From Streptantibioticus ferralitis (lineage in GTDB: Bacteria > Actinomycetota > Actinomycetes > Streptomycetales > Streptomycetaceae), in contig NZ_JARHTQ010000007.1 in NCBI RefSeq assembly GCF_029223525.1, forward strand, positions 248,001 to 312,000: DNA of 64,000 nucleotides. The letters run 5' to 3'. Each line of letters begins with the position of its first letter. Within the stretch, counting starts at the first letter, position 1. Both the position numbers and the translations under genes were made by a program. Below, piece by piece: positions 18,764 through 36,610 of this stretch. The notes below the pieces were generated by a model, which saw only the letters and a list, made by a program, of their open reading frames with translations, had not been told where the DNA came from and made no database searches.

Positions 18764-20050
18764 ATGACGCCCTGGCGACTTCGGGATCTGGAGGAAGGCG
18801 ACCTGGACCAGGTGGTGCGCATCTGGGAGGAGTCGCGCGACACGGCCGCGGACCCCGCGGTGAGCCTCGCGGAGGTGGTCAGTGCCCTTCGCATGGACAC
18901 ACCGGCCGTGGTGGCTGTGGTGGGGGACCAGGTCGTCGGTGCCGCGGTGTCCTCGACGTCGCAGGAGCGGGCCTGGGTGCTGCGGCTGGCCGTCACCCGT
19001 CAGTGGCGCCACCACGGCATCGGGTCGGCACTGCTGACCGCCCTTGAGCGCCGTTTGGCGCCCATGGGCGTGCAGCGCATCGGGGCGCTGCTGCCGGCGG
19101 GGGAGATGGGCGAGCGGGCCTTCAAGAACTCCGGATACACCAGTCGGCCGGACCTGGGTTACTTCGAGAAGCTGCTGTCCGCGGATTCGGCGGAGGCCAC
19201 CATCCTCGAACAACTCGGCGGGGTGGTGCCGGAGGACGGTCTGTGGGCGCAGATCGCGGGCATGAGCGCGGAGAAGACGCTGATCGAGCGGCGGCTGGTG
19301 CTACCGCTGGAGAATCCGGAAGCTGCGGAGCGTTACCATCTGACTCCGCCACGTGCCGTCGTGCTGTTCGGTCCGCCGGGCACGGGCAAGACCACGTTCG
19401 CGCGGGCGGTGGCCTCCCGGCTGCGGTGGCCGTTCGTCGAGGTGTTCCCCTACCAGCTGTCCGAGGACGCCCACGGGGTGGCCAACGGGCTACGTCAGCT
19501 GTTCTCGCGCGTCGAGCACCTCAAGCAGGTCGTGCTCTTCTTCGACGAGGCGGAGGAGATCGCCTCCGAACGGCAGGATCCGACCTCGCTGGCCCACCGG
19601 GTGACCAATGAGCTCCTCAAGCTCATCCCGCAGTTCCGGCGCGGGCAGCGCAGGCTTCTGATCTGCGCGACCAATGTGGTGCGTTCCCTGGATCCCGCCT
19701 TCCTGCGGCCGGGGCGCTTCGACTACCTGATCCCGGTCGGCCCACCGGATGCCGAAGCCCGCAGGGCCATCTGGGTCCGGTACATCGGGCCGGACAGGGC
19801 AGCCTCCATCGACCTGGAGGCGTTGGTCCATGCCAGTGACCGCTTCACACCCGCGGACATCGAGTACGCGGCGCGCACCGCCGCGCAGGCTGCCTTCGAA
19901 CGGCACCTGGCAGCTGGCCCGCGGCAGGTCGAGGACGTGACCGAACTGACCGGCGACTACCTGCAGGCCATCGCCAACACCCGCACCACCCTCACCGAAG
20001 AGGACATCCGCGCCTTCGACCGCGACCTGCGGACAGCCGCCCGCGTATGA
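18764..20050 (+). CDS. GNAT acetyltransferase / AAA+ ATPase fusion protein
   Basis: From ATG 18764 (GGGAGG eight bases upstream) the protein has 428 residues. Residues 1-135 form a GNAT domain with an acetyl-CoA loop in RQWRHHGIGSALL. Residues about 180-400 form an AAA+ module of FtsH/CDC48-like type: Walker A GPPGTGKTTFARAVA near 203, Walker B VLFFDEAEEI, sensor ICATN and arginine-finger RPGRFD. A lid with FTPADIEYAARTA follows. The fusion suggests ATP-driven remodelling of a protein that is also acetylated or recognised by the GNAT part. No partner is obvious from the neighbours. An upstream GTG at 18755 is possible but overlaps the ribosome site. Confidence 0.88.
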   Translation: MTPWRLRDLEEGDLDQVVRIWEESRDTAADPAVSLAEVVSALRMDTPAVVAVVGDQVVGAAVSSTSQERAWVLRLAVTRQWRHHGIGSALLTALERRLAPMGVQRIGALLPAGEMGERAFKNSGYTSRPDLGYFEKLLSADSAEATILEQLGGVVPEDGLWAQIAGMSAEKTLIERRLVLPLENPEAAERYHLTPPRAVVLFGPPGTGKTTFARAVASRLRWPFVEVFPYQLSEDAHGVANGLRQLFSRVEHLKQVVLFFDEAEEIASERQDPTSLAHRVTNELLKLIPQFRRGQRRLLICATNVVRSLDPAFLRPGRFDYLIPVGPPDAEARRAIWVRYIGPDRAASIDLEALVHASDRFTPADIEYAARTAAQAAFERHLAAGPRQVEDVTELTGDYLQAIANTRTTLTEEDIRAFDRDLRTAARV

Positions 20051-20583: not shown

Positions 20584-23500
20584 ATGACGTCCGCTGCGCG
20601 CTTAGACGACATTGTCATAGGCATCAGTCCCCTCGGTGAACCGGACGCCAGACTCACCTCGGCGGTGAGTCGCGCCGGGGGACTCGGAGTGCTCGATCTG
20701 GGTACAGGGGGCCGCCGGGCGCGGGAGGCGCTCGCTGACACAAGTCGCTGGACGACGGGCGCCCGGTACGGAGTCCGGGTGGGCACTGCCTGCCAACTCG
20801 CGCCCACGGACGTCGAGGCCCCCGAGGGGGCGGGCCCGGACACCGTGGTCCTTGGCGTTGACGCGCCCTGGCGGACAGGCGAAGTCGCCGGCCGCTACCG
20901 GGTGTTGGTGGAGGTGACCGACCTGAACCAGGCCCTGGAAGCTGTCCGCTCCGGGGCACACGGCCTGATCGCCCGGGGCAGTGAGAGCGGCGGCCGGGTC
21001 GGGGAGCTCAGCACGTTCGTCCTGCTCCAGCACCTGCTTGCCGAGCCCGCGGTGTCCATCCCCGTGTGGGCCTGCGGCGGCATCGGGACGCGTACGGCAG
21101 CCGGTGCGGTGCTCGGCGGGGCGGCCGGGGTCGTTCTGGACACCCAACTGGCGCTGCTCGCCGAGTCCGGCCTGCCGCAGGAGGCGGTTGCCGTGATCCG
21201 CTCCATGGACGGTTCCGAGACCGTCGTCATCGACGGTCACCGGGTGCTGCGCCGCGGTCCCGTTGCCGTACCGGGCGTCGAGGACACCGCTCGCGTCGCC
21301 GCCCGACCCGGCGTGCACGATCCGCGCACCCAACTGCTCCCGGTGGGTCAGGACGGCTTCCTCGCCAGCCGCTTCGCCGAGCGTTGGCACGATGTCGGCG
21401 GGGCCGTCCGGGCCGTCACCGAGGCCATCCGCAAGGCCGTACGGGACGACTCGGCAGCCGCGGCGTTACGCCCCGGGTCGGCGATGAGCAGCACACTCGG
21501 TACCCGACTGCCGGTCGTACAGGGCCCGATGACCAGGGTCAGCGATCAGTCGGAATTCGCCGCCGCCGTCGCCGACGAGGGCGCGCTGCCCTTCATCGCG
21601 CTCGCCCTGGCGGGGCCGGAGCGAGCGCGCGAGGTGCTGACAGAGGCCAAGTCCGCGCTGGGGGGACGGCCGTGGGGCGTCGGCCTACTCGGCTTCGCGC
21701 CACCGGAGATCAGACGAGTCCAGCTCGAAGCCGTACGCGAACAGCGCCCAAGCCATGTGATCATCGCGGGCGGGCGGCCGTCCCAAGCCGAGGCGCTGGA
21801 GCGGGACGGGATCACCACCTTTCTGCACGTTCCCTCGCCAGGGCTGCTCCGCCAGTTCCTCCAGGCCGGTGCCCGCCGGTTCGTCCTCGAAGGATCCGAA
21901 TGCGGCGGCCATGTCGGGCCGCGCAGCAGCTTCCCGCTCTGGGAGGCCCAACTGGCGGTGATCGAGGACTACTTGGACGGCGCCGGGGAGACGAGAGACC
22001 GCGTCGAGGTGCTCTTCGCCGGCGGAATCCACGATGAACGGTCAGCCGCGATGGTGGCCGCGCTGACCGCCCCGCTCGTCCGCCAAGGCGGCGCCGTCGG
22101 CCTGCTGATGGGCACCGCGTACCTCTTCACCAAGGAAGCGGTGGAGCGCGGCGCCGTCCAGCCGCTCTTTCAACGCCAGGTGGCGGCCGCACGGCGCACC
22201 GTGCTGCTGGAGACCGCCCCAGGCCACGCCACCCGGTGCGTGGCCAGCCCCTTCGCCGACGGCTACCCCGCCGTCAAGGAGCGGCTGCGGGCAAGTGGCG
22301 TCCCCGACCGGCAGATGTGGGAGGAACTGGAGCGGCTCAACGTCGGCCGGCTGCGCATCGCCAGCAAGGGGCTGGAACGAGACGCGGACGGCGAACTGCT
22401 GCCGGTCACCGAGGAACGCCAGCTCGCCGAGGGCGTGTTCATGGCTGGACAGGTCGCGGTGCTGCGCTCGGCCACCACCACGATCGGCGCGCTGCACCAC
22501 TCGGTCTCCCACGGCGCCGCGGACTTCCTCGCCGGACGCGCGGCCTCGCTCCAACAGCGCCTTGGCGTCACACAGGCTCAGCGGTACGCCGAACCGGAGG
22601 CGCCCGCGCCGTTGGACGTGGCGGTGGTCGGCATGGCCTGCATGTTCCCGCAGGCGCCCGACCTCGCCTCGTTCTGGGCCAATGTACTGGGCGGCGTCGA
22701 CGCGGTCACCGAAGTGCCCGGAGAGCGATGGGATCCCTCGGTGCACCACGCACCGACCAATGACGGCGACACCGGCGCCAGAAGCGCCACCGCCTCCAAG
22801 TGGGGTGGATTCCTGCCGAAGATCCCGTTCGACCCTCTTCGGTACGGCATCCCGCCGACCGCGCTCGGCAGCATCGAGCCGGTGCAGTTGCTCGCCCTTG
22901 AGGCCGCCCGACGCGCCCTGGACGACGCCGGATACGGCGACCGGGGCCGGGCGTTCGACCGGTCCCGTACCGCGGTCGTCTTCGGCGCCGAAGCCGGCAG
23001 TGATCTGTCCAACGCCCATGCGCTTCGTGCGGTGCTGCCGTCCTACCTCGGCACGGTACCGGAGGCACTCGCGGAGCAACTGCCCGAGCTGACCGAGGAC
23101 TCCTTCCCCGGCATGCTCGCCAACGTGATCTCCGGGCGGATCGCCAACCGGCTCGACCTCGGCGGCGCCAACTACACGGTGGACGCGGCCTGCGCGTCGT
23201 CACTGGCCGCCGTGGATGTCGCATGCAAGGAACTGGTCGCGGGCACCAGCGACATCGTCTTGTGCGGTGGCGCCGACCTGCACAACGGCATCAACGACTA
23301 TGTGCTCTTCTCCTCGGTGCACGCCCTCTCGCCGACCGGCCGCTCGCGCGCCTTCGACAACTCGGCGGACGGCATCGCGCTCGGGGAGGGCGTGGCCTGC
23401 GTCGTACTCAAGCGGCTGGCCGACGCGTCGCGGGACGGCGACCGGATCTACGGCGTGATCAAAGGGGTGGGCAGCTCCAGCGACGGCCGGTCGCTCGGCC

Positions 23501-26500
23501 TGACCGCGCCACGCCCCGAAGGCCAGCGGGCCGCCCTGGAACGCGCCTACCGCAACGCCCGTGTCTCACCCGCCGATGTCGGCCTGATCGAGGCCCATGG
23601 CACCGGGACGGCCGTCGGCGACCGCACCGAACTGGCCATCCTCAGTGAAGTGTTCACCAGCGCCGGTGCCACACCAGGGGGCTGTGCGCTCGGCTCCGTC
23701 AAGTCGCAGATCGGGCACACCAAATGCGCCGCCGGACTGGCCGGACTCATCAAGACCGCCCTGGCGCTGCACACCGGTGTCAAGCCGCCGACCCTGCACA
23801 TCACCCGCCCGAACGACGCATGGGAGCCGCAGCGCAGCCCATTCGTCTTCCACACGGAGGCACGGCCGTGGGCGGCACCGCCCACGGAACGGACCGCGGG
23901 GCTCAGCGCGTTCGGATTCGGCGGCACCAACTTCCATGTGGTGCTGGCGGCTCATGACAGCGGTGCGCCGCCGGCTCACGGGCTCGACGCCTGGCCCGCC
24001 GAGCTGTTCACCTTCCGCGGTACGGACCGCTCCGCCGCGTTGCGCGAGGTAGCGGAGACGCTGGAGCTGGCTGCCGGGAACGACCGCTCCGGGCGGCCGT
24101 GGCGGCTGCGCGACCTCGCGCTGGCCGTGGCCCAGCGCTCGGATGCCAGCCGTGAGCCGGTTCAGGTGGCCGTGGTGGCCAAGGACTTGGACGGTCTGGC
24201 CGGGCAGCTGCGCCGGGTACTCGCGGGCGAACACGACCCCGCGAACGGGATCCATATTTCTGATAGGTCGTCAGAAATCGGGGTTCCGGCTTCCCCTCAA
24301 TCGCCGAGTCGGGGAAAGGTCGCCTTTCTCTTCCCCGGCCAGGGCAGCCAGCGGCCCGGCATGTTCGCGGACATATTCGTCGCCTTTCCCGAACTGCACC
24401 GCTATCTCGAACTCGGCCGGGCCCACGCGGACGTTCTCCATCCGCCCACCGCCTTCGACGAGACCCGGCGCGTGGCACAGCAACAGCGGATCGCGGACAC
24501 CCGCGTGGCACAGCCGGTTCTCGGCGTGACGGGTCTGTCGGCGTACGCCCTGCTCACGGCCGCCGGCATCCAGCCGGACATGCTCGCCGGACACAGCTAC
24601 GGGGAACTCGTCGCCCTCTGCGCGGCGGGCGCCCTCGATCCGCGAACCCTGCTGGAGTTGAGCGCCGAGCGTGCGACCGCCATCCTCGAAGCGGCCGGGG
24701 ACGAGCCGGGTGCCATGGCCGCGGTGACGGCAGGAGCGCAGGACGCCGAGCGGATCCTGCGCCAGGCGGGGCTGGTCGGGAAGGCCGTCGTCGCCAACCA
24801 CAACGCACCGCGCCAGACGGTGCTCTCCGGACACACGGACGCGGTGGACGAGGCGATGCGGCTGTTCCGGGAGGCCGGGTACGGCGCCCGGCGGCTTCCG
24901 GTGGCCTGCGCCTTTCACAGTCCGCTGCTCGCCGGTGCGGGGGAACGGTTCGCCCAGGCGCTCGCGAGGCGCCGGGTGCGAGCCCCCGAGCTGCCGGTCT
25001 GGGCCAACCGCACCGCCGCCGTCCATGGCACGGACCCGGACGAGATTCGGTCGGAGCTGGCCGCCCAGATCGAAGCGCCGGTCCGCTTCGCGGCGCAGAT
25101 CGAGGCCATGTACGAGGCGGGCGCCAGGGCGTTCGTCGAGGCGGGCCCCGGCACGGTGCTCACCCGGCTGGTCGGCTCGATCCTGGGGGACCGCCCGCAC
25201 CGAGCGATCGCCTTTGAGGGCGGCGGTGCCGGCGCCAACGGCCTGCACGCTTTCCTCGACGCGCTCGCCCAACTCGCCGTCGCCGGGCTGCCGGTGCGCA
25301 CCGGCTGGATGTTCCGCGGCCGAGACGCGGTAGCGGCCGACCGCAAGGCGCCACCGACGCGGCCCGGATGGACGGTGGACGGCCACCTGGTGCGCACGGC
25401 GGACGGCGAACTCCTGCCCGGTGCGCTGGCGCCCGCCCGACGGATCCGGGAAGCGACGATCAGCGCGCCGGACCGGCCGGACGGTGTGCAGGCGGAACGG
25501 GACGAGCTGGTCCGCGAATTCCTGCGCGGCAGCCGGGAAATGGTCGCGGCCCAGCGCGATGTGCTGCTGGCCCACCTCGGTGCCGAACCGGGCACCCGGT
25601 TCACCGCCCCTGTCGCACCCGTCGTGGCCGAACCGCGGCGGACGGCGGCGACCGCCGCGGTCCCCGCCGATGCTCCGCACGGCACCGAAGCCGCCCCCAC
25701 TCCGGCCGCGCGCACCGCCGCCGACGTGTCGCGGGTGGTGTCGCAGATCATCAGCGAGCGCACGGGCTACCCCCTCGACATGATCGCGCCCGACCTCGAC
25801 CTGGAAGCCGACCTGAGCATCGACTCGATCAAGCGCGCCGAGATCGCGGGCGAACTCGCCAAGCGGTTGGGGATGAGCGGCGAAGGCGCGGCGGCGCTCG
25901 GCGACGAGGAACTGGAAGATCTCGCCAAGGCCCGCACCACGGCGGCTGTCACCGCCTGGCTGACCGGGCGACTGACACCGCTCGACGGATCCGGCACGCA
26001 GGCATCGTCCGAACTCCAAGTGCCACTATCAACAGATGAGTTGGGGTCCGATGCGATCCGGCAGCGGCTCCCGTCCGTAGCCGGAGAAGCACCCAAACGG
26101 CTTCTGCTGCGCCCTGTGCCGCTCGGCGAGCCGGACCCCGCAACCGACCCCGCCGTCCTGCTGACCGGTAAACGCTTCGTGCTGCTGGGCGGCGGTGGCG
26201 GCGTCGCCGGGACCGTCTCGGCTCGACTCGCGGCACACGGCGCCGAAGCCGTGACCCTCGGCGCCGGCCATCTGCTCACCGACCGGGACGGGCACGTGGA
26301 CGGCGTGATCCTTTTGGAGCCCTTGGCCGACGCTGGCACTCCGGTGCTGCCCGAGGCGTTCCCGGTGCTCCAGGCCGCCCTGCGGCGCTCACCGCGCTGG
26401 CTGCTGGCGGTGCGCAGCAGCGATCCGCTCGACCTGCGCGCTGCCGGACTGCACGGGTTCTTCCGCACGGTGGCCAAGGAGTACCCGGGGATTGCGGCAC

Positions 26501-27594
26501 GCGTCGTCGACATGCCGTCGGCAGACCCCGGCGCCGCATCCGCTCACGGCTACGGTGGTGAGGAGCCCGGGGCCGTAGCGGACGCGCTGCTCGGCGAGTT
26601 GCTCGCCCCGGACGGTGCACCGGTGGTGCTGCGGACCGTCACGGACAGGCACGGGCTGGAGCTGGTGGAGACCCCGCTCGGGAGCCTGGCCACCTCGGGC
26701 GCCGGACCCGCAGGTGACGGGGCGGCGGAGGCCGCCGCCATCGGCCTCGACCGCGACAGCGTGGTGGTACTGGTCGGCGGGGCACGGGGCATCACCGCAC
26801 GGTTCGCCGCCACGCTCGTCGCCGCCGCACGCTGCCGTATCGAACTGCTCGGCCGGACGCCCGAGCTGACCGGGCCAGAGGACCCGGTCACCGCCGACGC
26901 CCGCGATCCGGCGTCCCTGCGCGCGGTGCTCGCCGTCCAAGGCCACCGGACACCCGCCGAGATCCAGCGGGAAGCCTCCCGAATCCTGGCCCAGCGCGAA
27001 GTCGCCGCCACCTTGGACGAGTTGAGGCGCCTCGGCAGCCAGGTGCGATACCGCTCCGTGGACTTCCGGGAGACCGATGCCGTACTCCAGGCCGTCAAGG
27101 AGATCCACGCCGAGCACGGCCGACTGGACGGCGTCGTGTACGGCGCGGGCGTCATCGAGGACCGGCTGATCGAGCAGAAGTCCGCGGAGTCCTTCAAGCG
27201 GGTCTTCGGCACGAAGGTGGACGGGGCGAGCGCCCTGCTGGACGCGCTGGAGGAACTGCCGGTCGGCCCCGCCCTTCTGGTGCTGTTCGGCAGCATCTCC
27301 GCGGTGCTCGGCAATCCCGGCCAGGCGGACTACGCCGCGGCCAACGACGCGCTGGAGACCCTCGGCCAACGGTGGGCGGCTCGCACGGGGCGCCGGGCGC
27401 TCACCGTGCACTGGGGTCCCTGGGCGCCCACCGGGGCGCACGCGGGCATGGTCACCCCGGAACTCGCCCGTGAGTACGCGCGGCGCGGCATCCCACTCAT
27501 CGACCCGGAGGAAGGCGCACTCGCGCTGCTGCGCGAACTCGCCTGGCAGAGCGAGCCGACCGCCTCCGTCGTCGTCACCGCGTCGCAGTGGTGA
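20584..27594 (+). CDS. PUFA-synthase/HglE-like type I PKS: NPD-NPD-KS-AT-ACP-KR
   Basis: I start at ATG 20584 behind GGAGAG, because the longer open frame runs over the promoter; the product has 2336 residues. Two TIM-barrel domains of the nitronate monooxygenase/PfaD type come first: about 1-240 (ARGSESGGRVG, CGGIGT) and about 304-640 (EGSECGGHVGPRS, FAGGIHD). KS spans 676-1120 with Cys 870 in DAACASS and both catalytic His motifs. AT begins near 1244 with Ser 1338 in GHSYGE. One ACP lies at 1715-1790 with Ser 1748 in the Pfa-type SIDSIKRAEI. KR is at 2058-2336 with GGARGI, Ser 2237 and Tyr 2250. The NPD domains are the likely enoyl reductase. It resembles PfaA plus PfaD fused, with a single ACP. 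Confidence 0.93.
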   Translation: MTSAARLDDIVIGISPLGEPDARLTSAVSRAGGLGVLDLGTGGRRAREALADTSRWTTGARYGVRVGTACQLAPTDVEAPEGAGPDTVVLGVDAPWRTGEVAGRYRVLVEVTDLNQALEAVRSGAHGLIARGSESGGRVGELSTFVLLQHLLAEPAVSIPVWACGGIGTRTAAGAVLGGAAGVVLDTQLALLAESGLPQEAVAVIRSMDGSETVVIDGHRVLRRGPVAVPGVEDTARVAARPGVHDPRTQLLPVGQDGFLASRFAERWHDVGGAVRAVTEAIRKAVRDDSAAAALRPGSAMSSTLGTRLPVVQGPMTRVSDQSEFAAAVADEGALPFIALALAGPERAREVLTEAKSALGGRPWGVGLLGFAPPEIRRVQLEAVREQRPSHVIIAGGRPSQAEALERDGITTFLHVPSPGLLRQFLQAGARRFVLEGSECGGHVGPRSSFPLWEAQLAVIEDYLDGAGETRDRVEVLFAGGIHDERSAAMVAALTAPLVRQGGAVGLLMGTAYLFTKEAVERGAVQPLFQRQVAAARRTVLLETAPGHATRCVASPFADGYPAVKERLRASGVPDRQMWEELERLNVGRLRIASKGLERDADGELLPVTEERQLAEGVFMAGQVAVLRSATTTIGALHHSVSHGAADFLAGRAASLQQRLGVTQAQRYAEPEAPAPLDVAVVGMACMFPQAPDLASFWANVLGGVDAVTEVPGERWDPSVHHAPTNDGDTGARSATASKWGGFLPKIPFDPLRYGIPPTALGSIEPVQLLALEAARRALDDAGYGDRGRAFDRSRTAVVFGAEAGSDLSNAHALRAVLPSYLGTVPEALAEQLPELTEDSFPGMLANVISGRIANRLDLGGANYTVDAACASSLAAVDVACKELVAGTSDIVLCGGADLHNGINDYVLFSSVHALSPTGRSRAFDNSADGIALGEGVACVVLKRLADASRDGDRIYGVIKGVGSSSDGRSLGLTAPRPEGQRAALERAYRNARVSPADVGLIEAHGTGTAVGDRTELAILSEVFTSAGATPGGCALGSVKSQIGHTKCAAGLAGLIKTALALHTGVKPPTLHITRPNDAWEPQRSPFVFHTEARPWAAPPTERTAGLSAFGFGGTNFHVVLAAHDSGAPPAHGLDAWPAELFTFRGTDRSAALREVAETLELAAGNDRSGRPWRLRDLALAVAQRSDASREPVQVAVVAKDLDGLAGQLRRVLAGEHDPANGIHISDRSSEIGVPASPQSPSRGKVAFLFPGQGSQRPGMFADIFVAFPELHRYLELGRAHADVLHPPTAFDETRRVAQQQRIADTRVAQPVLGVTGLSAYALLTAAGIQPDMLAGHSYGELVALCAAGALDPRTLLELSAERATAILEAAGDEPGAMAAVTAGAQDAERILRQAGLVGKAVVANHNAPRQTVLSGHTDAVDEAMRLFREAGYGARRLPVACAFHSPLLAGAGERFAQALARRRVRAPELPVWANRTAAVHGTDPDEIRSELAAQIEAPVRFAAQIEAMYEAGARAFVEAGPGTVLTRLVGSILGDRPHRAIAFEGGGAGANGLHAFLDALAQLAVAGLPVRTGWMFRGRDAVAADRKAPPTRPGWTVDGHLVRTADGELLPGALAPARRIREATISAPDRPDGVQAERDELVREFLRGSREMVAAQRDVLLAHLGAEPGTRFTAPVAPVVAEPRRTAATAAVPADAPHGTEAAPTPAARTAADVSRVVSQIISERTGYPLDMIAPDLDLEADLSIDSIKRAEIAGELAKRLGMSGEGAAALGDEELEDLAKARTTAAVTAWLTGRLTPLDGSGTQASSELQVPLSTDELGSDAIRQRLPSVAGEAPKRLLLRPVPLGEPDPATDPAVLLTGKRFVLLGGGGGVAGTVSARLAAHGAEAVTLGAGHLLTDRDGHVDGVILLEPLADAGTPVLPEAFPVLQAALRRSPRWLLAVRSSDPLDLRAAGLHGFFRTVAKEYPGIAARVVDMPSADPGAASAHGYGGEEPGAVADALLGELLAPDGAPVVLRTVTDRHGLELVETPLGSLATSGAGPAGDGAAEAAAIGLDRDSVVVLVGGARGITARFAATLVAAARCRIELLGRTPELTGPEDPVTADARDPASLRAVLAVQGHRTPAEIQREASRILAQREVAATLDELRRLGSQVRYRSVDFRETDAVLQAVKEIHAEHGRLDGVVYGAGVIEDRLIEQKSAESFKRVFGTKVDGASALLDALEELPVGPALLVLFGSISAVLGNPGQADYAAANDALETLGQRWAARTGRRALTVHWGPWAPTGAHAGMVTPELAREYARRGIPLIDPEEGALALLRELAWQSEPTASVVVTASQW

Positions 27595-30500
27595 CCGTGG
27601 CGCGCGAAGACAGCGTCCACCGCGGGCCAGTCGGCAGGTCGTACCCGGTCGCCATCGTGGGGATGGCCGTGTTGCTGCCCGGCGCGCCGGACCTGGACAC
27701 CTACTGGCGCAACCTGGTGAACGGCGCGGACGCGATCACCGATGTGCCACCAGGGCGGTGGGACAGCGACTTCTACCACCCGGACAGCGCGGGCGGTCCG
27801 ACCGCGCCCGACCGTGTGTACTGCCGACGGGGCGGATTCGTGGACGAGTTCGCCGAGGTGGAGGTCACCCGGTTCGGCATCATGCCCGCCTCGGTGCCGG
27901 GTGCCGAGCCCGACCAACTGCTCGCCCTGAAAGTGGCGGCCGCGGCCGTCGCGGACGCGGGTGGCGAGGACCGGCTGCCCGACCGGCAGCGGGTGGGCGT
28001 GGTGCTGGGCCGCGGCGGATACCTCACGCCCGGACTCGTCCGGCTCGACCAGCGGGTACGCACCGCACGCCAACTGGTGTGCACCCTCGGCGAGTTGTTG
28101 CCCGGCCTCCGCGCCGATCAGTTGGAGCGTGTGCACGCGGCCTTCACCGAGCGCCTCGGGCCCGACCGCCCCGAGGCGGCCATCGGACTGGTGCCCAACC
28201 TCGCCGCCTCACGCGTGGCGCACCGACTCGACCTGCGCGGGCCCGCCTACACCGTGGACGCCGCCTGCGCCTCGTCACTCGTGGCGGTCGACCAGGCGGT
28301 GGGGGAGCTGGCCTCCGGCCGGTGCGACGTGATGCTCGCCGGTGGAGTGCACCACTGCCACGACATCACCTTGTGGAGCGTCTTCTCCCAGCTCGGTGCG
28401 CTCTCCCCGAGCCAGCGCATCCGGCCCTTCCACCGCGCGGCCGACGGCATTCTGATCGGCGAGGGCACCGGAGTCGTGGTACTCAAACGACTGGCCGACG
28501 CGCAGGGGGCGGGCGACCGTGTCTACGCCGTCATCCGGGGCACCGGGGTCGCCAGCGACGGCCGCGCCGCGGGCCCGGTCAACCCGGATCCGGCGGGCCA
28601 GGCGCGCGCCGTGCGGCAGGCGTGGCGAACGGCTGGCCTGGACCCCCGGGACCCGGACGCGATCGGGCTGCTGGAGGCACACGGCACCGCCACGCCCGCC
28701 GGAGACGCGGCCGAACTGGTCACGCTGGCCGATGTGTTCGGCCCGCGCGATCCCGGCGGAGCCGACGACCGCGCCGTGATCGGGTCGGTGAAGTCGATGA
28801 TCGGCCACACCATGCCGGCCGCCGGGGTGGCCGCACTGGTCAAGGCCGCCCTCGCGGTCCACCACGGCGTACTGCTGCCCACCCTGCACTGCGACGACCC
28901 GCACCCCGCTCTCGCGGCGACCCGGTTCCGTACCCTCGACACGGCGCAGCCGTGGGAAACCGGCCCCGGGCGGCCCGTACGCCGTGCGGCGGTGAACGCC
29001 TTCGGCTTCGGCGGCATCAACGCCCATGTGGTGCTGGAGCAGCCGCCAACGCCTGCTTCGTCCGTCGCCGCGACCGCTCCACGGGCCGTCGTGGCCGAGC
29101 CGGAGCGAGTCCTGGCGCTGTCCGCGGCCACCCCGGAACGACTCGCCGAGCTGCTCGCGGCGGACGACTCCGCCGTGCGCGCCGCGGGGGCAGTACGCCC
29201 CGCCGGGTCGGGCCGCAGCAGGCTCGGCATCGTCGACCCGACCGCCAAGCGGCTGGCGATGGCCAGGCGCATGGTCGCCAAGGGACGCTCCTGGCGCGGT
29301 CGGCACGACATCTGGTTCGTCCCCAGTCCACTGCTCGGCAGCGGCACCAACGGGATGCCGGGGAAGCTGGCCTTCGTGTTCCCCGGCCTTGAAGGCGAGT
29401 TCGAGCCCCGGGTGCACGGCGTGGCCGAGCACTTCGGGCTCGGCCGTGCGGCGGTACGCAGCGGTGGACCGGCACTGGCCGAAGACGTCGGCCGACGCGG
29501 AACCGATGTCTTCGGCGTCGGCCGCCTGCTGGACGCCGCGTTGCGGCACATGGGGATCGCGCCGGACGCGGTGGCCGGGCACAGCGTCGGCGAATGGACC
29601 GCGATGGTGGCGGGCGGCATGTACGCGGGCAACGCGGTCGACGCCTTCCTCGACTCCTTCGACCCGGACGCGCTCCGTGTGCCCGCGATGGCCTTCGCGG
29701 TCCTCGGCGCCTCCGCGGAGCGGGTAATGGCCGCACTGCGGGAGTGGTCGGACGACGGGATCGTGCTGTCCCACGACAACTCGGCGCACCAGTCGATCGT
29801 GTGCGGTCCTCCGGCTCCCGTCGCGGAGTTCGTCCGGTCGCTGCGGGCCGACGGGGTGATAGCGCAGGTCCTGCCGTTCCAGTCCGGCTTCCACACCCCG
29901 ATGCTCGCCCCCTACCTGGGGCCGATCGAAGCGGCCGCGCACCGTTTCGATCTGCTCCCGCCGACCGTCCCCGTCTGGTCGGCGACGACGGCCGCGCCCT
30001 ATCCACCGGACGAGGCCGCCGTACGGGAGCTGTTCGTACGGCACCTGCTGGAGCCCGTGCGCTTCCGGCCGCTGACCGAGGCCATGTACGAGGCGGGCTT
30101 CCGCGCCTTCGTACAGGTCGGTACCGGTCAGCTGGCCTCGCTCATCAGCGACACCCTGCACGACAGGGAACACCTCGTGGTCGCCGCCAACTCGCCGCAC
30201 CGCGACGGCCTCGCCCAACTCCGGTGCGTGGCCACGGCGTTGTGGGCCGACGGAGCCCGCGTGGACCCATCGCTGCCGCCCGCGTCTGCCGCGCACAGCG
30301 GGACGGGACACACCGCGGCGTCCCCCACGGCGTCGGCCCCGCATCAGCCGGTGCGGCTCGACCTGGGCGGTCCACTGGTCCGACTGGACGCGGGTGAACT
30401 AGCCGAACTGCGCCGCGAGTTGGCGCCCGCAGCCGATCCCACCGGCCACCTGGGCAGCCCCGCCGCGGCACTCGACAACGCGGCCGAACGCTTCCCGCTT

Positions 30501-32234
30501 GCCGCCGAACTCGGCGCGCTGCTGCGGGAGACGGCCGAGACCGCCGCCGAACTCATCGCAGCGGGAGACCGGACGGCGTCACCGCCGTCTCTCCCGCCCA
30601 CAGTCGGCGCGCAGCCGCCGCCGCACACCCTGGAGACGCACACCGTGCTGCGGGTCTCCACGGACACCATGCCCTATCTGCTCGACCACTGCTTCTTCCC
30701 GCAGCGGCCCGACTGGCCCGACGCGGCGGACCGTTGGCCGGTGGTACCGGCCACCACGATCGTCCGGCACCTCATGGAGGCGGCGGAGCGGGCCGCCTCC
30801 GGGCAGTGCGCCGTCGCGGTGCACGGCGCCCGCTTCGACCAGTGGGTGACCGCCGCACCACCGGCGGACGTGCCGATCACCACGAAACCGTCGCCCGACG
30901 GCCCGGGCAGGATCCGCGTCACCTTCGGCCGCAGCGCGCACGCCACGGTGGAGGTGGCGTCCCACTACCCCGCGGACCGCCCCGAACCATGGCGGGCCGA
31001 CCCCGCCGATGAGCGCGTTCCCGGCCACACGGCAGCCCAACTCTACGACGAGCGCTGGATGTTCCACGGTCCGCTGTTCCAGGGCGTCACCGATATCACC
31101 GCGATCGGCGAGAAGCACGTCCGCGGCACGATCGCCACGCCTCCGGCGCCCGGCGGTCTGCTGGACAACGTCGGCCAGCTCCTCGGCTACTGGATCATGG
31201 CGACCCGCACCGAGCGGACCGTGGTCTTCCCGGTCGGGATTCGGCACCTGCGCTTCTTCGAGCCGCACCCGCGCCCAGGCATCGAGCTGGAGTGCCTGGT
31301 CAGGATCGTCTCACTGACCGACACGGCACTCGAAGCCGACGTACAACTCGTCGCTGACGGCCGGGTGTGGGCCGAGCTGACCGGCTGGCGGGACCGCAGG
31401 TTCGACAACCACCCGGAGACCAAGGCGGTCGAGCGCTTCCCACAGCGCAACACGCTCTCCAAGGCGCAGCCCGGCGGCTGGGTCCTCCTCCACGAACGAT
31501 GGCCGGACCTCGCCTCCCGTGATCTGATCATGCGTAACCACCTGGGCGGCGCAGAGCGTACCGAGTACGAGCGCCACCCGCCGCACGGGCGCAGACAGTG
31601 GCTGCTCGGCCGGATCGCGGCCAAGGACGCCGTACGGCAGTGGCTTTGGGACCATGACGAGGGCCCGGTCTTCCCCGCGGAGATCCGGATCCACAACGAC
31701 GAACACGGCCGCCCGTACGCCACGGGCGTACACGGACGTACCCTCCCGGCCCTGGATGTCTCGCTGGCGCACCGGGCCGAGACCGGCGTGGCACTCGTGG
31801 TAACGCGACGATCGCAAGGGCGCGCGGACAGTCCGGCTCCCGGCATCGACATCGAGGAGATCGCCGACCTGACCGAGCAGACCCTCGCGGTCGCCTTCGG
31901 CACGTCGGAGCACAAGCTGATCGCCGCGTTGCGCGCCGCGACCGGCGAGGCCGAGGCGTGGTGGGCCACGACGTTCTGGGCGGCGAAGGAGGCCGTCGCC
32001 AAGGCGGAGGGCACCGGTTTCCGCGGCAGACCGCGGGACTTCGCCGTGGTCGAGGCGGACGTGAGGGCCGCACCGGTGCGCCTCGTGGTCGAGGCTGCCG
32101 CGCCCACCGGTCGGCGGCGCCGCTATCGGGTGCACAGCACGGGGGTGGCCAACCCGCCGGGGTTGCCGCCCAGGGAATACATCGTGGCCTGGACGAACGG
32201 ACCGGCGGACGACAACGAGGAGATCGATCAGTGA
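27591..32234 (+). CDS. PUFA-synthase-like PKS subunit: KS-AT-DH-phosphopantetheinyl transferase
   Basis: The GTG at 27591 overlaps the previous stop (GTGA); a GTG one codon earlier is equally open. The 1547-residue protein has a complete KS (17-483, Cys 226 in DAACASS, His in EAHGTAT and MIGHT) and a divergent AT from about 590 with Ser 665 in GHSVGE. A double-hotdog dehydratase at about 1010-1270 has His 1033 in LLDHCFF and Asp 1192 in LLDNVGQLLG. A Sfp/ACPS-type phosphopantetheinyl transferase at about 1285-1547 has GIDIEE (Asp 1420, Glu 1422) and WAAKEA (Lys 1466). It would pair with the first subunit for chain building and dehydration and would also activate the ACPs. Unlike PfaC, there is only one KS and it is not a decarboxylase-type chain-length factor. 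Confidence 0.93.
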   Translation: MTVAREDSVHRGPVGRSYPVAIVGMAVLLPGAPDLDTYWRNLVNGADAITDVPPGRWDSDFYHPDSAGGPTAPDRVYCRRGGFVDEFAEVEVTRFGIMPASVPGAEPDQLLALKVAAAAVADAGGEDRLPDRQRVGVVLGRGGYLTPGLVRLDQRVRTARQLVCTLGELLPGLRADQLERVHAAFTERLGPDRPEAAIGLVPNLAASRVAHRLDLRGPAYTVDAACASSLVAVDQAVGELASGRCDVMLAGGVHHCHDITLWSVFSQLGALSPSQRIRPFHRAADGILIGEGTGVVVLKRLADAQGAGDRVYAVIRGTGVASDGRAAGPVNPDPAGQARAVRQAWRTAGLDPRDPDAIGLLEAHGTATPAGDAAELVTLADVFGPRDPGGADDRAVIGSVKSMIGHTMPAAGVAALVKAALAVHHGVLLPTLHCDDPHPALAATRFRTLDTAQPWETGPGRPVRRAAVNAFGFGGINAHVVLEQPPTPASSVAATAPRAVVAEPERVLALSAATPERLAELLAADDSAVRAAGAVRPAGSGRSRLGIVDPTAKRLAMARRMVAKGRSWRGRHDIWFVPSPLLGSGTNGMPGKLAFVFPGLEGEFEPRVHGVAEHFGLGRAAVRSGGPALAEDVGRRGTDVFGVGRLLDAALRHMGIAPDAVAGHSVGEWTAMVAGGMYAGNAVDAFLDSFDPDALRVPAMAFAVLGASAERVMAALREWSDDGIVLSHDNSAHQSIVCGPPAPVAEFVRSLRADGVIAQVLPFQSGFHTPMLAPYLGPIEAAAHRFDLLPPTVPVWSATTAAPYPPDEAAVRELFVRHLLEPVRFRPLTEAMYEAGFRAFVQVGTGQLASLISDTLHDREHLVVAANSPHRDGLAQLRCVATALWADGARVDPSLPPASAAHSGTGHTAASPTASAPHQPVRLDLGGPLVRLDAGELAELRRELAPAADPTGHLGSPAAALDNAAERFPLAAELGALLRETAETAAELIAAGDRTASPPSLPPTVGAQPPPHTLETHTVLRVSTDTMPYLLDHCFFPQRPDWPDAADRWPVVPATTIVRHLMEAAERAASGQCAVAVHGARFDQWVTAAPPADVPITTKPSPDGPGRIRVTFGRSAHATVEVASHYPADRPEPWRADPADERVPGHTAAQLYDERWMFHGPLFQGVTDITAIGEKHVRGTIATPPAPGGLLDNVGQLLGYWIMATRTERTVVFPVGIRHLRFFEPHPRPGIELECLVRIVSLTDTALEADVQLVADGRVWAELTGWRDRRFDNHPETKAVERFPQRNTLSKAQPGGWVLLHERWPDLASRDLIMRNHLGGAERTEYERHPPHGRRQWLLGRIAAKDAVRQWLWDHDEGPVFPAEIRIHNDEHGRPYATGVHGRTLPALDVSLAHRAETGVALVVTRRSQGRADSPAPGIDIEEIADLTEQTLAVAFGTSEHKLIAALRAATGEAEAWWATTFWAAKEAVAKAEGTGFRGRPRDFAVVEADVRAAPVRLVVEAAAPTGRRRRYRVHSTGVANPPGLPPREYIVAWTNGPADDNEEIDQ

Positions 32235-32554
32235 CCACCAGTGAGCAGACCCCTGCGGTCTCCGTGGTCGACGCGCGGACCGTCCTCGCGGAGATCACGG
32301 AGATGCTCCGCACCGTACTCGACGAGTACGGCCTCGACGACACCGAGATCACCATGGAAAGCCGCTTCACCGAGGACCTGGAGCTGGAGAGCATCGACCT
32401 GGTCACCCTGGCGGGCGAGTTGGAGGCACGCTACGGGCGGCAGGTCAACTTCGCCGAGTTCGTGGCCGACTTGGAGCTTGGGGAGATCATCGGCCTCACC
32501 GTCGGACGTCTCGTCGAGTACGTCGTGCGGTGCCTCAACGCCGAGGGGAGCTGA
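32231..32554 (+). CDS. Discrete acyl carrier protein
   Basis: A 107-residue acidic carrier protein with the attachment site in DLELESIDLVTLAGELE; the phosphopantetheine Ser is in LESIDL. GTG 32231 overlaps the stop of the PKS gene as GTGA. It may carry a starter or an extender, or receive the finished chain before release. The PKS itself has only one ACP, so this one could also serve as a second carrier for the iterative enzyme. The PPTase domain in the preceding gene product is its likely activator. Confidence 0.92.
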   Translation: MTTSEQTPAVSVVDARTVLAEITEMLRTVLDEYGLDDTEITMESRFTEDLELESIDLVTLAGELEARYGRQVNFAEFVADLELGEIIGLTVGRLVEYVVRCLNAEGS

Positions 32555-32557
32555 TCG

Positions 32558-33403
32558 ATGGCGATGATCCGGACAGCCGACGGACCGGATGGCATCACAC
32601 TCCATGTACAGCGGCTCGCTCCGCCGGACGGTCGCCCGCCCACCGCCACCGCCGTGCTGCTGCACGGCCTGCTCACCGACAGCCTGGCCAGCTACTACTT
32701 CACCGTGGCCCCCGCGCTCGCCGCCGCCGGGATCGACGTGGTGATGTACGACCACCGCGGCCACGGTCGCAGCGAACGCCCTTGCGCCGACTACCGGTTG
32801 GCCGACTTCGTCCGCGACCTGGAGCGGCTGCTCGACCGGTTGGAGATCACCGGCCCCGTCCACCTGGTGGGCAACTGCTTCGGCGGAACGGTGGCCTTCG
32901 AGTACGCCGTCCGCCACCCGGATCGGGTCGCGGGTGTCTCGCTGATCGAATCGAATCCGGCCACGGAGTCCTGGGCCAAGGAGATAGCCGATATCTTCCG
33001 GCGTCTCGTCACGGAACTGGTCGAGCACGAGGCCGAGGCGCTGGCCTGGGTCAACGCCAACGAGGGCGGACACACCGCCAGGTTGGCGAAGTCGGCGGCC
33101 CGGCTGATGCGCTCCACCAGCATCGCGACGGACGTTCCGGCGAGCCGGGTGCTCAGCGAGGAGCAGGTCCGCTCGGTGCACTGCCCGGTGCTGGCCGTCT
33201 ACGGCTCCGACTCCGAACTCGCCGGGCAGACATGGCGGCTGGAGTCGCTGGTGCCGGGCACGCGATCGATCGTCCTGCCCGGCCAGGGCCACTCCGTGCT
33301 GGCGGAGGCACCCGGGCTCGTCCTCGATCTGCTCCTGTCCGGTATCCGCGAGCCCGGCGGCACGCCGCCGGTGCCGGTCCCGGCCGAGGGCGACGCACGG
33401 TGA
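32558..33403 (+). CDS. Alpha/beta hydrolase with a cysteine nucleophile, possible chain-release enzyme
   Basis: The 281-residue protein has the alpha/beta-hydrolase fold with the oxyanion loop HGLLTDS and DHRGHGRSERP. The nucleophile elbow reads GNCFGG, so the usual Ser is Cys 107. The other triad members fit Asp 218 (YGSDSEL) and His 245 (GQGHSVL). It starts 3 bp after the ACP gene stop and overlaps the next gene by GTGA. This position and the Cys triad suggest a thioesterase-like or acyltransferring release step, for example passing the chain to an alcohol or sugar. Plain ester hydrolysis is also possible. Confidence 0.88.
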   Translation: MAMIRTADGPDGITLHVQRLAPPDGRPPTATAVLLHGLLTDSLASYYFTVAPALAAAGIDVVMYDHRGHGRSERPCADYRLADFVRDLERLLDRLEITGPVHLVGNCFGGTVAFEYAVRHPDRVAGVSLIESNPATESWAKEIADIFRRLVTELVEHEAEALAWVNANEGGHTARLAKSAARLMRSTSIATDVPASRVLSEEQVRSVHCPVLAVYGSDSELAGQTWRLESLVPGTRSIVLPGQGHSVLAEAPGLVLDLLLSGIREPGGTPPVPVPAEGDAR

Positions 33404-34602
33404 GCCGCTTCCTGTTCGTCGTGCCGCCGCTGGTCGGCCATGTCAACCCCACAGTGGGAGTCGGGGCTGAACTGGCCGCCCGCGGACACCAGGTGGCCTG
33501 GGCCGGAATGCCCGAGGTCGTGCGACCGCTGGTCGGCGACGGCGCCGCGGTCTTCGTCTGCGGCGGTCCGCGGCTCGGCGAGGGCGGCGCCGTGCGCCCA
33601 CCGGACGTACGCGGCCCGAGCGCGCTGAAGTTCCTCTGGGAACGATTCCTGGCGCCGCTCGCCGAGGAGATGACCCCTGGCGTGCGTGCGGCGGTAGCGG
33701 ACTTCCGCCCGGATGTGCTGGTCGCCGACCAGCAGACCGTCGCCGGAGGTCTGACCGCCGAACTGCTCGGCGTACGGTGGGCCACCTCCGCCACCACCTC
33801 GGCCGAGTTCACCGGCGCGCTCGACGGCATGCCCAAGGTCGACGCCTGGCTCGACGGGCTGCTGGGCGACCTGCGCCACTGCACGGGCGACCCGGCCGGG
33901 ACGGCGGATCCGCGGTTCTCACCGCACCTGGTGCTCGCCTTCACCACCGAGGAACTCGCCGGACGCCCGGTGCGGGCGCGGGACCGGATTCGTTTCGTCG
34001 GCCCGTCGATCGCCCACCGCCCGACCCCGCACCACTTCCCCTGGCGCTGGCTCGACCCCGCGCGCCCCTCGGTACTGGTCACCTTGGGCACCGCCAACGC
34101 CGAGGCAGGCGCACGCTTCCTCGCCGAATGCCGCGAGGCCGTGCGCCGCCGAACCGACCGCCTCCAAGCGGTGATCGCCGACCCCGCGGGCTCGCTCGGT
34201 CCGCCCACTCCGGATGACAAGGACGTGCTGGTGCTGCCATACGTTCCCCAACTCCCGCTCCTCGAAAGGGTCGACGCCGTCGTCTGCCACGCGGGACACA
34301 ACACCGTCTGCGAATCCCTGTGGCACGGCGTCCCGCTGGTCGTGGCACCGATCCGCGATGACCAACCCGTCGTCGCCGCCCAGGTGGTGGACGCCAGGGC
34401 GGGCATCCGCGTCAGGTTCGGCAGAGTCACGGCGTCCAGGCTCGGCGACGCGCTCGACGCCGTGCTCCACGAGCCCGGCTATCGTGCCGCGGCCGAGCGA
34501 GTCGGGGCGTCCTTCCACGCGGCGGGCGGAGCCGCCGCGGCCGCCACCCACCTGGAACGGTTGGCGGACGAGCCCGCGCCCATCCCCGAGGTGAAGAAAT
34601 GA
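33400..34602 (+). CDS. GT1-family glycosyltransferase (MGT/UGT-like)
   Basis: The 400-residue protein has the two-lobed GT-B fold of family 1. The N-terminus FLFVVPPLVGHVNPTVGVGAE is the acceptor-side start seen in macrolide and lipid glycosyltransferases. The C-terminal donor site has LVLPYVPQLPLLERVDAVVCH-type sequence followed by AGHNTVCESLWHGVPLV near residue 295 and the DDQPVVA end. It would add one sugar from an NDP-sugar to a hydroxyl on the PKS product. Both ends overlap neighbouring genes by four bases, so it is part of the PKS operon. The donor sugar is not predictable here. Confidence 0.92.
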   Translation: MSRFLFVVPPLVGHVNPTVGVGAELAARGHQVAWAGMPEVVRPLVGDGAAVFVCGGPRLGEGGAVRPPDVRGPSALKFLWERFLAPLAEEMTPGVRAAVADFRPDVLVADQQTVAGGLTAELLGVRWATSATTSAEFTGALDGMPKVDAWLDGLLGDLRHCTGDPAGTADPRFSPHLVLAFTTEELAGRPVRARDRIRFVGPSIAHRPTPHHFPWRWLDPARPSVLVTLGTANAEAGARFLAECREAVRRRTDRLQAVIADPAGSLGPPTPDDKDVLVLPYVPQLPLLERVDAVVCHAGHNTVCESLWHGVPLVVAPIRDDQPVVAAQVVDARAGIRVRFGRVTASRLGDALDAVLHEPGYRAAAERVGASFHAAGGAAAAATHLERLADEPAPIPEVKK

Positions 34603-35714
34603 GCGGCGGCCACACTCCCGGAACGGCAACGAAGCGGAACCGCGCCGCGACCGTCGCCCAGCTTCGTCCGCGCTACCAGGCCGATCTGGCCCAGGGCACC
34701 GCGCAGTTCTTCGACCAGCGCCGCGCCGACTGCCCGTGGTGCGGCTCGACCCGGCTGCGGCAGCGACTGCGGACGCCCGACCTCTTCCAGCACAAACCCG
34801 GCCACTTCAACCTCGACAAGTGCCAGGAGTGCGGCCATGTCTTCCAGAACCCCAGGCTGAACGGCGCGGGTCTGGAGTTCTACTACCGGGACTTCTACGA
34901 CGGACTGGGGGAGAAGGACCTCGAAGGCGTCTTCACCGGACCCGGCCGGGAGAAGATGTACCGACGTCGCGCCGAGTCCCTGAAGCCCTTCGCCCGCTCC
35001 CCGAAGAGCTGGCTCGACGTCGGCACCGGCCACGGGCACTTCTGCGCCACTGCCCGTACCGTCTTCCCCGGAACCTCGTTCGACGGACTGGACTTCAGCT
35101 CAGGTATCGAACTGGCCGAGCGGGCCGGCCGGATCGACCGCGGATTTCGCGGCAGCTTCACCGAGTTGGCGCGCGGGGAACTCGTCGGCGGATACGACGC
35201 CGTCAGCATGTATCACTACCTGGAACACAGCACCGACCCGCGGAGCGAACTGCGGGCAGCCCGGCAGGCGCTCCGCCCGGGAGGGCATCTGCTGATCGAG
35301 GTGCCCGATCCGCAGAGCCGCCTCGCCGCAGTGCTCGGCCGCTGGTGGCTGCCCTGGCTGCAACCACAGCATCTGAACTTCGTGCCCGTGGCCAACCTCC
35401 GCGAAGAGCTGACCGTCCTCGGCTTCACCGTGGTCGCCGAGGAACACGCCGAGCCGCATGACACGGTCGACCTGCTCGGTGCCGTATGGCTGTCGCTGAA
35501 CGCCATCGCCCCACCCGAGGACGCTCCCTGGCTCGCCAAACCGACCGACGGCATCCATCGCCTGCTACGCGCCGCGATCTTGTTGGCCGGGGTTCCCGCA
35601 CTGCTCGTGGGCACCACGCTCGACCGGCTGCTGGTCAAGCCGATCGCCCACCGGCTGGGCCTGAGCAACGCCTACCGGGTGATCGCCCGGCGGCCTGAGG
35701 CGCCGCCCGGGTAA
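34599..35714 (+). CDS. SAM-dependent methyltransferase with N-terminal zinc ribbon
   Basis: The 371-residue protein opens with a zinc ribbon, CPWCGSTRLR and CQECGHVFQNPRL (four Cys between residues 45 and 80). A class I methyltransferase fold follows, with motif I LDVGTGHGHF near 140 and a YHYLEH segment. The C-terminus has a hydrophobic stretch near 325-345 (LLAGVPALLVGTTLDRLL), which may attach it to the membrane. This layout resembles sugar C- or O-methyltransferases acting on deoxysugars or glycolipids. ATG 34599 overlaps the glycosyltransferase stop (ATGA). It may methylate the attached sugar or the lipid chain. It is the last gene of the coupled operon. Confidence 0.9.
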   Translation: MSGGHTPGTATKRNRAATVAQLRPRYQADLAQGTAQFFDQRRADCPWCGSTRLRQRLRTPDLFQHKPGHFNLDKCQECGHVFQNPRLNGAGLEFYYRDFYDGLGEKDLEGVFTGPGREKMYRRRAESLKPFARSPKSWLDVGTGHGHFCATARTVFPGTSFDGLDFSSGIELAERAGRIDRGFRGSFTELARGELVGGYDAVSMYHYLEHSTDPRSELRAARQALRPGGHLLIEVPDPQSRLAAVLGRWWLPWLQPQHLNFVPVANLREELTVLGFTVVAEEHAEPHDTVDLLGAVWLSLNAIAPPEDAPWLAKPTDGIHRLLRAAILLAGVPALLVGTTLDRLLVKPIAHRLGLSNAYRVIARRPEAPPG

Positions 35715-35971
35715 CGCCCGCTCCCGGCGGTCAGCGCGGGGCGTGCCCGCCCGCCGCGGCGCGTACACCGCAGGAGGCCCAAGGTGGCGCACATCGCAGC
35801 TGTGCATATGGGGCCCTCGGAGTACAACCGCCGCGGACGGCGATGTTGCCGGCGGGCAGGCGTGAGCGCGTCACCCGGTCGCGGCCCGGTCGGTTCTCGC
35901 CTTGCCCGCGCGGGCTGACGACAATGCCCTGGGACGCTGCACGGCTGGCGCGATGAGTGAGGGCGGTGTTG

Positions 35972-36610
35972 ATGGGTGACCTGACGGTGCTTCCGCTCGC
36001 GGTCACCATGATGATGGGCCCGCAAATCATCACGGCCGTCATCCTGGTGACGACGCCTCGCCCGGTGCGGGCCTCGCTCGCGTTCGTCGCCGGGGTCATC
36101 GTCGCGGCGGCGGCGGGTACGGCGGCCGCACGAGGACTCGCCGCGCTGCTGAGCCACGCGATCGGCCTGGGCGCTCATGCGGATCGAGGCTCGGCGGGCA
36201 ACGTCATCCAGTACATCCTGGTCGCGTTGCTGCTGTTCCTGGCCTTGCGGAGTTACCGGGGCCGCGCGACCGCCGAGCCGCCGAAATGGCTGGGCACACT
36301 GCTGACCGCGGGCCCCGGCAAGGCCTTCAAGGCGGGATTGCTGCTGGTCCTCCTGATGCCGTCGGACATCGTGATCATGCTGACGGTGGGCGCCAACCTC
36401 GCCTCGCGCCGCGCGGACTTCGGCTCGGCGATCCCGTTCCTGGCGGCCACAGCACTGATCGCGGCGCTTCCGCTGCTGATCTACCTGCTGTTCCGGCCGC
36501 TGGCGGCAAAGGCGATGCCCAAGGTCCGGGACTCGTTGACCAGCCACAGCTGGCTGGTCAACGTGGTCTGCTGCCTGGTCTTCGTCGTGCTCATCCTGTC
36601 CGGGGTGTGA
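35972..36610 (+). CDS. GAP-family (glycopeptidolipid-addressing-like) membrane protein
   Basis: The 212-residue protein has six hydrophobic segments and the look of the Sap/GAP family of actinobacteria: LPLAVTMMMGPQIITAVIL at the N-terminus, a cytoplasmic loop with GKAFKAG, and PSDIVIMLTVGAN. In mycobacteria, Gap is needed for glycopeptidolipids to reach the surface. I use ATG 35972 with GAGGGCGG upstream; GTG 35957 is possible. It lies 257 bp after the methyltransferase on the same strand, and I infer that it may help export the PKS glycolipid. Its end is only 6 bp from the convergent neighbour. Confidence 0.87.
   Translation: MGDLTVLPLAVTMMMGPQIITAVILVTTPRPVRASLAFVAGVIVAAAAGTAAARGLAALLSHAIGLGAHADRGSAGNVIQYILVALLLFLALRSYRGRATAEPPKWLGTLLTAGPGKAFKAGLLLVLLMPSDIVIMLTVGANLASRRADFGSAIPFLAATALIAALPLLIYLLFRPLAAKAMPKVRDSLTSHSWLVNVVCCLVFVVLILSGV

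Follow-up and report, generated by a model that had tools for sequence, protein, structure and literature searches.

Secondary-lipid synthases of the Pfa kind have been sorted into several types (Shulse & Allen 2011, PMC3098273). In the portion of that paper available to us, Type M includes Actinosynnema, Frankia, Renibacterium and S. avermitilis and is reported from all three finished Frankia genomes, S. coelicolor is assigned to Type L, with a separate PfaD and the order KS-CLF-DH2-AT, and Type F, the heterocyst glycolipid synthase (HglE group), is described as being without the DH/I domain. The accessible part of PMC13291983 describes fused PfaDA and PfaBC proteins with a phosphopantetheinyl transferase (PPTase) and likens them to the Renibacterium arrangement. 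Here we analyzed a 64,000-nucleotide window (positions 248,001 to 312,000 of contig NZ_JARHTQ010000007.1) from the 8.8-Mb genome of Streptantibioticus ferralitis, in which six plus-strand genes at 20584-35714 lie head to tail and encode two polyketide synthases (PKS1 and PKS2), a stand-alone acyl carrier protein (ACP), an alpha/beta hydrolase (ABH), a GT1 glycosyltransferase (GT) and a methyltransferase (MT). The domain architecture of the two synthases fits Type M, and the genes behind them recur in fixed order among the 149 loci that we compared. With a probability of roughly 0.7, we predict that this operon makes a glycolipid, most likely a glucosylated, often O-methylated long hydroxy-acid.

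Two features of Type M are present: PKS1 has an enoyl reductase (ER, PfaD) fused to PfaA, giving ER-KS-AT-ACP-KR, and PKS2 corresponds to the PfaBC-type protein to which a PPTase is fused, the form stated for Renibacterium in PMC13291983. The likeness thus lies in the fused PfaD-PfaA and PfaBC-PPTase and in the actinobacterial host, the type being assigned here by domain order. A locus of Actinosynnema pretiosum (L071) is 60-61% identical to the window's, this species being congeneric with the Type M member rather than the source of the reference KS itself. The differences from the published type are the ACP-ABH-GT-MT cassette, the doubled ER and the product, which go unmentioned in the accessible text of PMC3098273, where the word 'glycosyl' occurs 0 times. 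We found no earlier description of this fixed tailoring cassette of a known synthase type.

Other synthase types resemble the locus less. The first-pass annotation named a similar locus in S. coelicolor (around SCO0124-SCO0129), and Type L is indeed a Pfa-like synthase in Streptomyces; however, here the ER is fused to PKS1 and PKS2 has the order KS-AT-DH-PPTase with one DH, so that the suggested likeness is not supported when the window is compared with the description in the available portion of PMC3098273, a comparison of published description and not of sequences. The S. coelicolor genes are merely called eicosapentaenoic acid genes in the parts of PMC7324645 and PMC5932044 consulted, and no paper came up for SCO0127 together with polyunsaturated fatty acid (PUFA) or for a combination with hglE. 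Type F shares with the locus a Pfa-like synthase whose chain ends on a sugar, but it is without DH/I according to the same portion of PMC3098273, whereas the DH His and Asp are invariant here (149/149) and the cassette adds a hydrolase; the suggestion of a heterocyst-glycolipid synthase is therefore not supported in the strict sense. PKS1 scores 889.7 against the Type A/B PUFA synthase model for PfaA (TIGR02813), below its cut-off of 1010.1. We rejected a Type A/B PfaA-E system, since PKS1 has one ACP versus 4-6 tandem ACPs, and likewise a PfaC protein (KS-CLF-DH2), since PKS2 is KS-AT-DH-PPTase and its KS keeps the active Cys in 142/142 readable loci. Enediyne PKSs (PKSE) are single proteins of the order KS-AT-ACP-KR-DH-PPTase; this class was rejected too, the locus having two proteins, two KSs and ERs.

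The 149 loci comprise 84 (the window, a second copy in its own genome, two plasmid loci and 80 genome loci) plus 65 survey loci. The two plasmid loci and the best 80 of at least 571 form 82 named loci, which are biased to close relatives. The survey loci were obtained by surveying the genus, the family, the class and the phylum with a 448-amino-acid probe of the DH-PPTase region. They were picked by hand, 30 from the 48 places in the family, 33 from the 41 additional ones in the class and the two additional ones in the phylum; the places passed over include contig-end pieces and some close relatives. Outside the 149 stand L001, L085, L151-L158 (short pieces) and L159-L165, and discounting five near-duplicates leaves 144 non-redundant loci.

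Across the 149 loci we found the ACP in 149, the ABH in 147, the GT in 147 and the MT in 93; the corresponding numbers are 144, 142, 142 and 88 for the non-redundant loci and 65, 65, 64 and 44 for the survey loci. The first-pass annotation had tied a PUFA-synthase-like PKS to glycosylation and methylation, and the conservation of tailoring genes with the PKS argues for such a tie, fully for ACP, hydrolase and GT and in part for the MT. The order PKS2-ACP-ABH-GT holds in 145/145 loci with all of these genes, the MT follows the GT in 93/93, and the cassette persists in loci whose PKS2 is about 40% identical to that of the window. PKS1, which was not counted as a tailoring gene, passes a strict position filter with its C-terminal part in 141/149 loci; among the other eight, the contig stops within PKS2 in L100, L108 and L121, and five show a PKS1 match. 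Compared locus by locus, the tailoring genes thus belong to the PKS and the linkage is beyond chance, because the ACP-ABH-GT order is found in 145/145 loci while no other flanking family approached that share. Clustering of the flanking open reading frames (ORFs; home-made calls) gave no regulator or further gene near core frequency, a single very large cluster (1576 ORFs, mostly on the minus strand) being excluded as antisense noise; upstream conservation was read from only about 3 kb before PKS1 in most named loci. After the core genes, ABC transporters came next among the flanking families, along with a secreted SGNH-type hydrolase in 12 loci and MFS exporters in 10, the latter two named by eye.

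The same genes are also inherited together. Pairwise distances of PKS2 correlate with those of GT (r = 0.91), ABH (0.88) and MT (0.91). In 11/11 same-genome pairs tested (L107/L121 stood outside the test), PKS2, GT and ABH are each nearest to the same-lineage copy in another genome, not to the genome-mate. The genome of the window itself holds a second full six-gene copy (L084, contig C33:565000-584900) in the same order, with 56-69% identity, and all six genes occur on two linear Streptomyces plasmids (L002 and L003), with IS3 near both and IS6 near L002. The probe matched in 2/3 genus genomes, 49/200 family genomes at E 1e-60, 33/246 class genomes at 1e-40 and 5/198 phylum genomes at 1e-20; these prevalences are lower bounds, since no more than 6-8 first-look candidates were scored for each genome in the family, class and phylum surveys. 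Genomes of one family (f69) carry up to four synthase matches each, in two lineages of copies. This family is presumably that of Frankia, in keeping with the statement, in the part of PMC3098273 at hand, that each of the three finished Frankia genomes has Type M.

In the window, the six genes read as one operon, because four junctions overlap by 4-7 nt (PKS1/PKS2, PKS2/ACP, ABH/GT and GT/MT) and the fifth gap (ACP/ABH) is only 3 bp with the chosen start codons. Cassette genes overlap likewise in the relatives, with median gaps of -4 to 3 bp. All genes and domains that the first-pass annotation had described for a PUFA-synthase-like set were recovered with Pfam and NCBIfam models, and its run of ACP, hydrolase, GT1 and zinc-ribbon methyltransferase without gaps behind the PKS was confirmed. 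Elsewhere in the window, a gene upstream of the operon (18755-20050) joins a GNAT acetyltransferase domain to an AAA+ ATPase, and a GT2 glycosyltransferase gene overlaps a gene for a PMT-like membrane glycosyltransferase (13225-16172).

PKS1 (20584..27594, plus strand, start ATG at 20584; Pfam NMO, KS, AT, one ACP and KR) has the order ER-ER-KS-AT-ACP-KR, with two NPD domains (NPD1, approximately 20602-21250; NPD2, approximately 21469-22563), a KS (22615-23802), an AT (24325-25173), an ACP (25735-25926) and a KR (26761-27426). PKS2 (27588..32234, plus strand; Pfam KS, AT, PS-DH and ACPS) has the order KS-AT-DH-PPTase, with the KS at 27645-28892, the AT at 29535-30185, the DH at approximately 30645-31427 and the PPTase around 31842-32078. 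Where readable, the catalytic residues of PKS1 are invariant (KS Cys 131/131, AT Ser 131/131, KR Tyr 137/137 and ACP Ser 133/133), NPD1 excepted, and PKS2 keeps, besides its KS Cys and its DH residues, the AT Ser in 145/145. The DH-PPTase part had no match at E 0.01 among PDB sequences.

The NPD region of PKS1 consists of two FabK-like domains in tandem, a detail absent from the first-pass annotation. Both match TIGR03151 below the model cut-off (4.7e-15 for NPD1 and 2.2e-20 for NPD2), and in an AlphaFold model of the PKS1 N-terminus (predicted confidence, pLDDT, 83.7) the second barrel matches FabK with Z about 34; the second barrel fills the list of structure matches, so the first is identified from the TIGR03151 match and the AlphaFold model. 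The catalytic His and Glu of NPD2 are invariant in 128/128 readable loci. The equivalent residue of NPD1 is Arg in 97 and His in 2 of 120 readable loci, the catalytic His thus being gone in 118/120. Because the His is lost there, NPD1 is probably a structural, non-catalytic partner, and NPD2 is probably the working enoyl reductase. Two TIM-barrel ERs in one synthase are also found in thraustochytrids, whose PUFA synthases are called unique in this respect in the available part of PMC13311796. There, however, the two domains (ERb and ERc) are located on two proteins and both have the catalytic His motif, whereas here they stand in tandem and the first is mostly without the His.

The tailoring genes follow directly on the plus strand. 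The stand-alone ACP (32231..32554; NCBIfam ACP models, best 8.2e-10) keeps the serine of its LESID motif in 149/149 loci. The hydrolase (32558..33403; PF00561, 2.9e-29) has the nucleophile elbow GNCFGG in the window, so the earlier label of a Cys-type hydrolase is right for this protein but not as a rule for the family, in which the nucleophile is Ser in 134/147 loci and Cys in 13/147; the catalytic His is kept in 147/147. In tree order, the Cys-type hydrolases fall at three points apart from one another, namely the window's branch, L091/L092 and L082. We propose that the hydrolase is a release or lactonising enzyme. The GT (33400..34602) is of the MGT type (TIGR01426, 1.9e-46, at 158.8 bits below the model cut-off of 260), and its PDB relatives include the oleandomycin glycosyltransferase and YjiC. 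Its catalytic His14 and its DQ donor motif are each conserved in 144/144 readable loci. The MT (34599..35714; PF13489, 4.4e-25) is a Cys4 zinc-ribbon, S-adenosylmethionine-dependent methyltransferase with a hydrophobic C-terminus, and its four zinc-ribbon Cys are kept in 92-93 of the 93 loci. Searches of hydrolase and MT against PDB sequences gave generic relatives only, those of the MT being weak (best 5.4e-7) and including UbiG-type O-methyltransferases.

The slot behind the GT is the variable part of the cassette, being occupied by an MT in 93 loci, by an ABC exporter in 20 and by neither in 31 (L072 counts among these merely because its contig ends), with the contig ending in 5; MT and ABC exporter were found together in 0 loci. 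The exporter stands directly behind the GT, with the MT absent, in L044-L047, L049, L055, L061, L062, L064, L066, L071, L075, L109, L111, L114, L115, L117, L121, L124 and L131. This count is position-restricted; the flanking ABC cluster mixes different ABC proteins and was not used. Since the ABC exporter of sister lineages replaces the MT and never accompanies it, secretion or surface exposure of the product is probable. In the window's own branch, no dedicated exporter is conserved. Of the 93 loci with an MT, 86 have a single copy and the other 7 have 2-4 (two copies in one locus, three in three loci and four in three). Four tandem MTs are found in L094, L101 and L102, and three in L097, L100 and L081 (those of L081 being interrupted by a gap behind the first MT), which suggests multiply methylated products. 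Several deep lineages (L086, L103, L112, L127, L128, L048 and L081) have an MT with an N-terminal extension of about 260 amino acids or more containing hydrophobic segments (judged by eye). No Pfam match covers this extension in the three proteins scanned (L086, L128 and L048), and that of Allokutzneria has a low-confidence predicted structure (pLDDT 67). In deep lineages, the cassette is followed immediately by a further conserved protein of about 300-375 amino acids (L086, reverse complement 14785-15912; L087, 14390-15451; L098; L127; L130), with no Pfam match in the L086, L087 and L098 proteins scanned.

From these parts we propose the following route. The PPTase at the C-terminus of PKS2 would activate the carriers, and PKS1 and PKS2 would assemble a long acyl chain iteratively from malonyl units (presumably, if the AFHS motif of the first AT is read by the usual rule) in a secondary-lipid KS/KR/DH/ER cycle, with hydroxyls remaining wherever the DH step is skipped. 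Enoyl reduction would fall to the second TIM barrel, the first acting as a non-catalytic partner given its lost His. The chain may then pass to the stand-alone ACP and be released or esterified by the alpha/beta hydrolase, after which the GT1 would attach a hexose to a hydroxyl or the carboxyl, probably glucose, which we take to be the donor from the DQ motif rule, and the zinc-ribbon methyltransferase would O-methylate the product.

Several observations weigh against this glycolipid prediction. L093, with room for it, is truly without a GT (in L072, by comparison, the contig stops 73 bp after the ABH), and L027 and L029 have no matching ABH. About 30 of the 149 loci carry neither an MT nor an ABC exporter behind the GT, and methylation is therefore inessential to the core. 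The PPTase residues are degenerate in some loci, the Asp being replaced in 14/141 readable ones. The distance correlations partly reflect species descent, the same-genome pairs being the one control. The acceptor and donor of the GT are guessed from family and motif, the tailoring enzymes may have a target that is not the PKS chain, and selective use of the ER could leave that chain unsaturated.

The favoured glycolipid may take the specific form of a macrodiolide of the cycloviracin/fattiviracin type, in which case the cassette would be the unreported biosynthetic locus of these glycolipid antibiotics; we advance this only tentatively. The PUFA-type iterative synthase would make two C22-C33 hydroxy-acids, each glucosylated by the GT1, the hydrolase, here lactone-forming, would close the dimer through glucose O-6, and the MT or MTs would add the 2-O-methyl groups. 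According to the part of PMC4365757 seen, both fattiviracins and cycloviracins are dimers of acylglucose in which the trihydroxy fatty acids have a length of about C22-C33, and cycloviracin carries C2 methoxy groups on three of its glucoses; Streptomyces and Kibdelosporangium albatum are the producers. This chain length, the glucosides, the lactone ring and the O-methyl groups call for such a gene set, and fattiviracin, not called methylated in that part of PMC4365757, would suit the MT-less branches. In the NCBI taxonomy K. albatum is Allokutzneria albata, and 3/3 Allokutzneria genomes examined (L048 is Allokutzneria sp. A3M-2-11) carry PKS1-PKS2-ACP-ABH-GT with two MTs nearby; this match is at genus level only and in one lineage, A. 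albata itself not having been identified among the genomes, and with the cassette present in 49/200 family genomes it could be a coincidence. Cycloviracin has five glucoses versus one cassette-type GT1 in about 35 kb at the three Allokutzneria loci, so one GT1 explains its sugars only if it acts repeatedly, and the 2-methyl, iso-branched chain of glucolipsin suits a malonyl-type AT poorly. Cycloviracin, fattiviracin and glucolipsin thus resemble the predicted product in chemistry and producer groups, a likeness from which the link to the cassette is drawn; no biosynthetic gene cluster for them was found in the literature searched (subscription papers excluded).

An envelope or spore-coat glycolipid retained in the cell, with a role like that of heterocyst glycolipids (e.g. 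as a diffusion barrier), seems to us unlikely. The combination of chain type and GT is similar to heterocyst glycolipid logic, the presumed Frankia family f69 has two lineages of copies (the three finished Frankia genomes all having Type M in the consulted part of PMC3098273), and nifH scored over the cut-off in 2/6 f69 genomes tested (G422 and G594), but 4/6 had none over the cut-off, and the patchy distribution, the linear-plasmid copies near IS elements and the ABC variant suggest an accessory secreted compound. A thioester-reductase domain is also absent from the window's cassette proteins by Pfam. Granadaene-like systems combine a carrier, a GT, a PPTase and an ABC exporter, and a glycosylated polyene pigment or polyketide in place of a saturated lipid would fit the ABC exporter associated with the GT1 and the single DH; we consider it improbable, since the invariant His and Glu of NPD2 indicate that enoyl reduction is under selection. 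The version put forward by the first-pass annotation, in which an adjacent Gap-type protein exports the glycolipid, is more improbable still. A SfLAP/Sap (Gap-like) membrane protein gene (35957..36610, PF11139, 4.9e-34) does lie on the same strand as the cassette, 242 bp after the MT, or 257 bp, the earlier figure, if its internal ATG at 35972 is used, and no terminator-like or sigma-70-like site was found in the stretch scanned; the RNA fold of the gap is ordinary (z -0.54). However, in a tblastn search over all loci the gene was found in 1/149, the window itself (1 of the 144 non-redundant and 0 of the 65 survey loci), and not behind the closest relative, L004. Only 2/41 genomes searched have it, the window's own and G212, which entered without a synthase match in the family survey. 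A Sap-like gene as the cassette exporter was consequently rejected, the exporter not being conserved with the lipid genes, and we judge the gene to be a neighbour outside the conserved cassette.

In summary, a synthase family listed in 2011 without a known product travels with a fixed glycosylation cassette, which makes its product class, a probable glycolipid, predictable. The cassette is also a specific candidate locus for antiviral glycolipids that date back to the 1990s, and, if the macrodiolide assignment is true, the loci with three or four MTs and the ABC-exporter branch would encode unseen members of that family.

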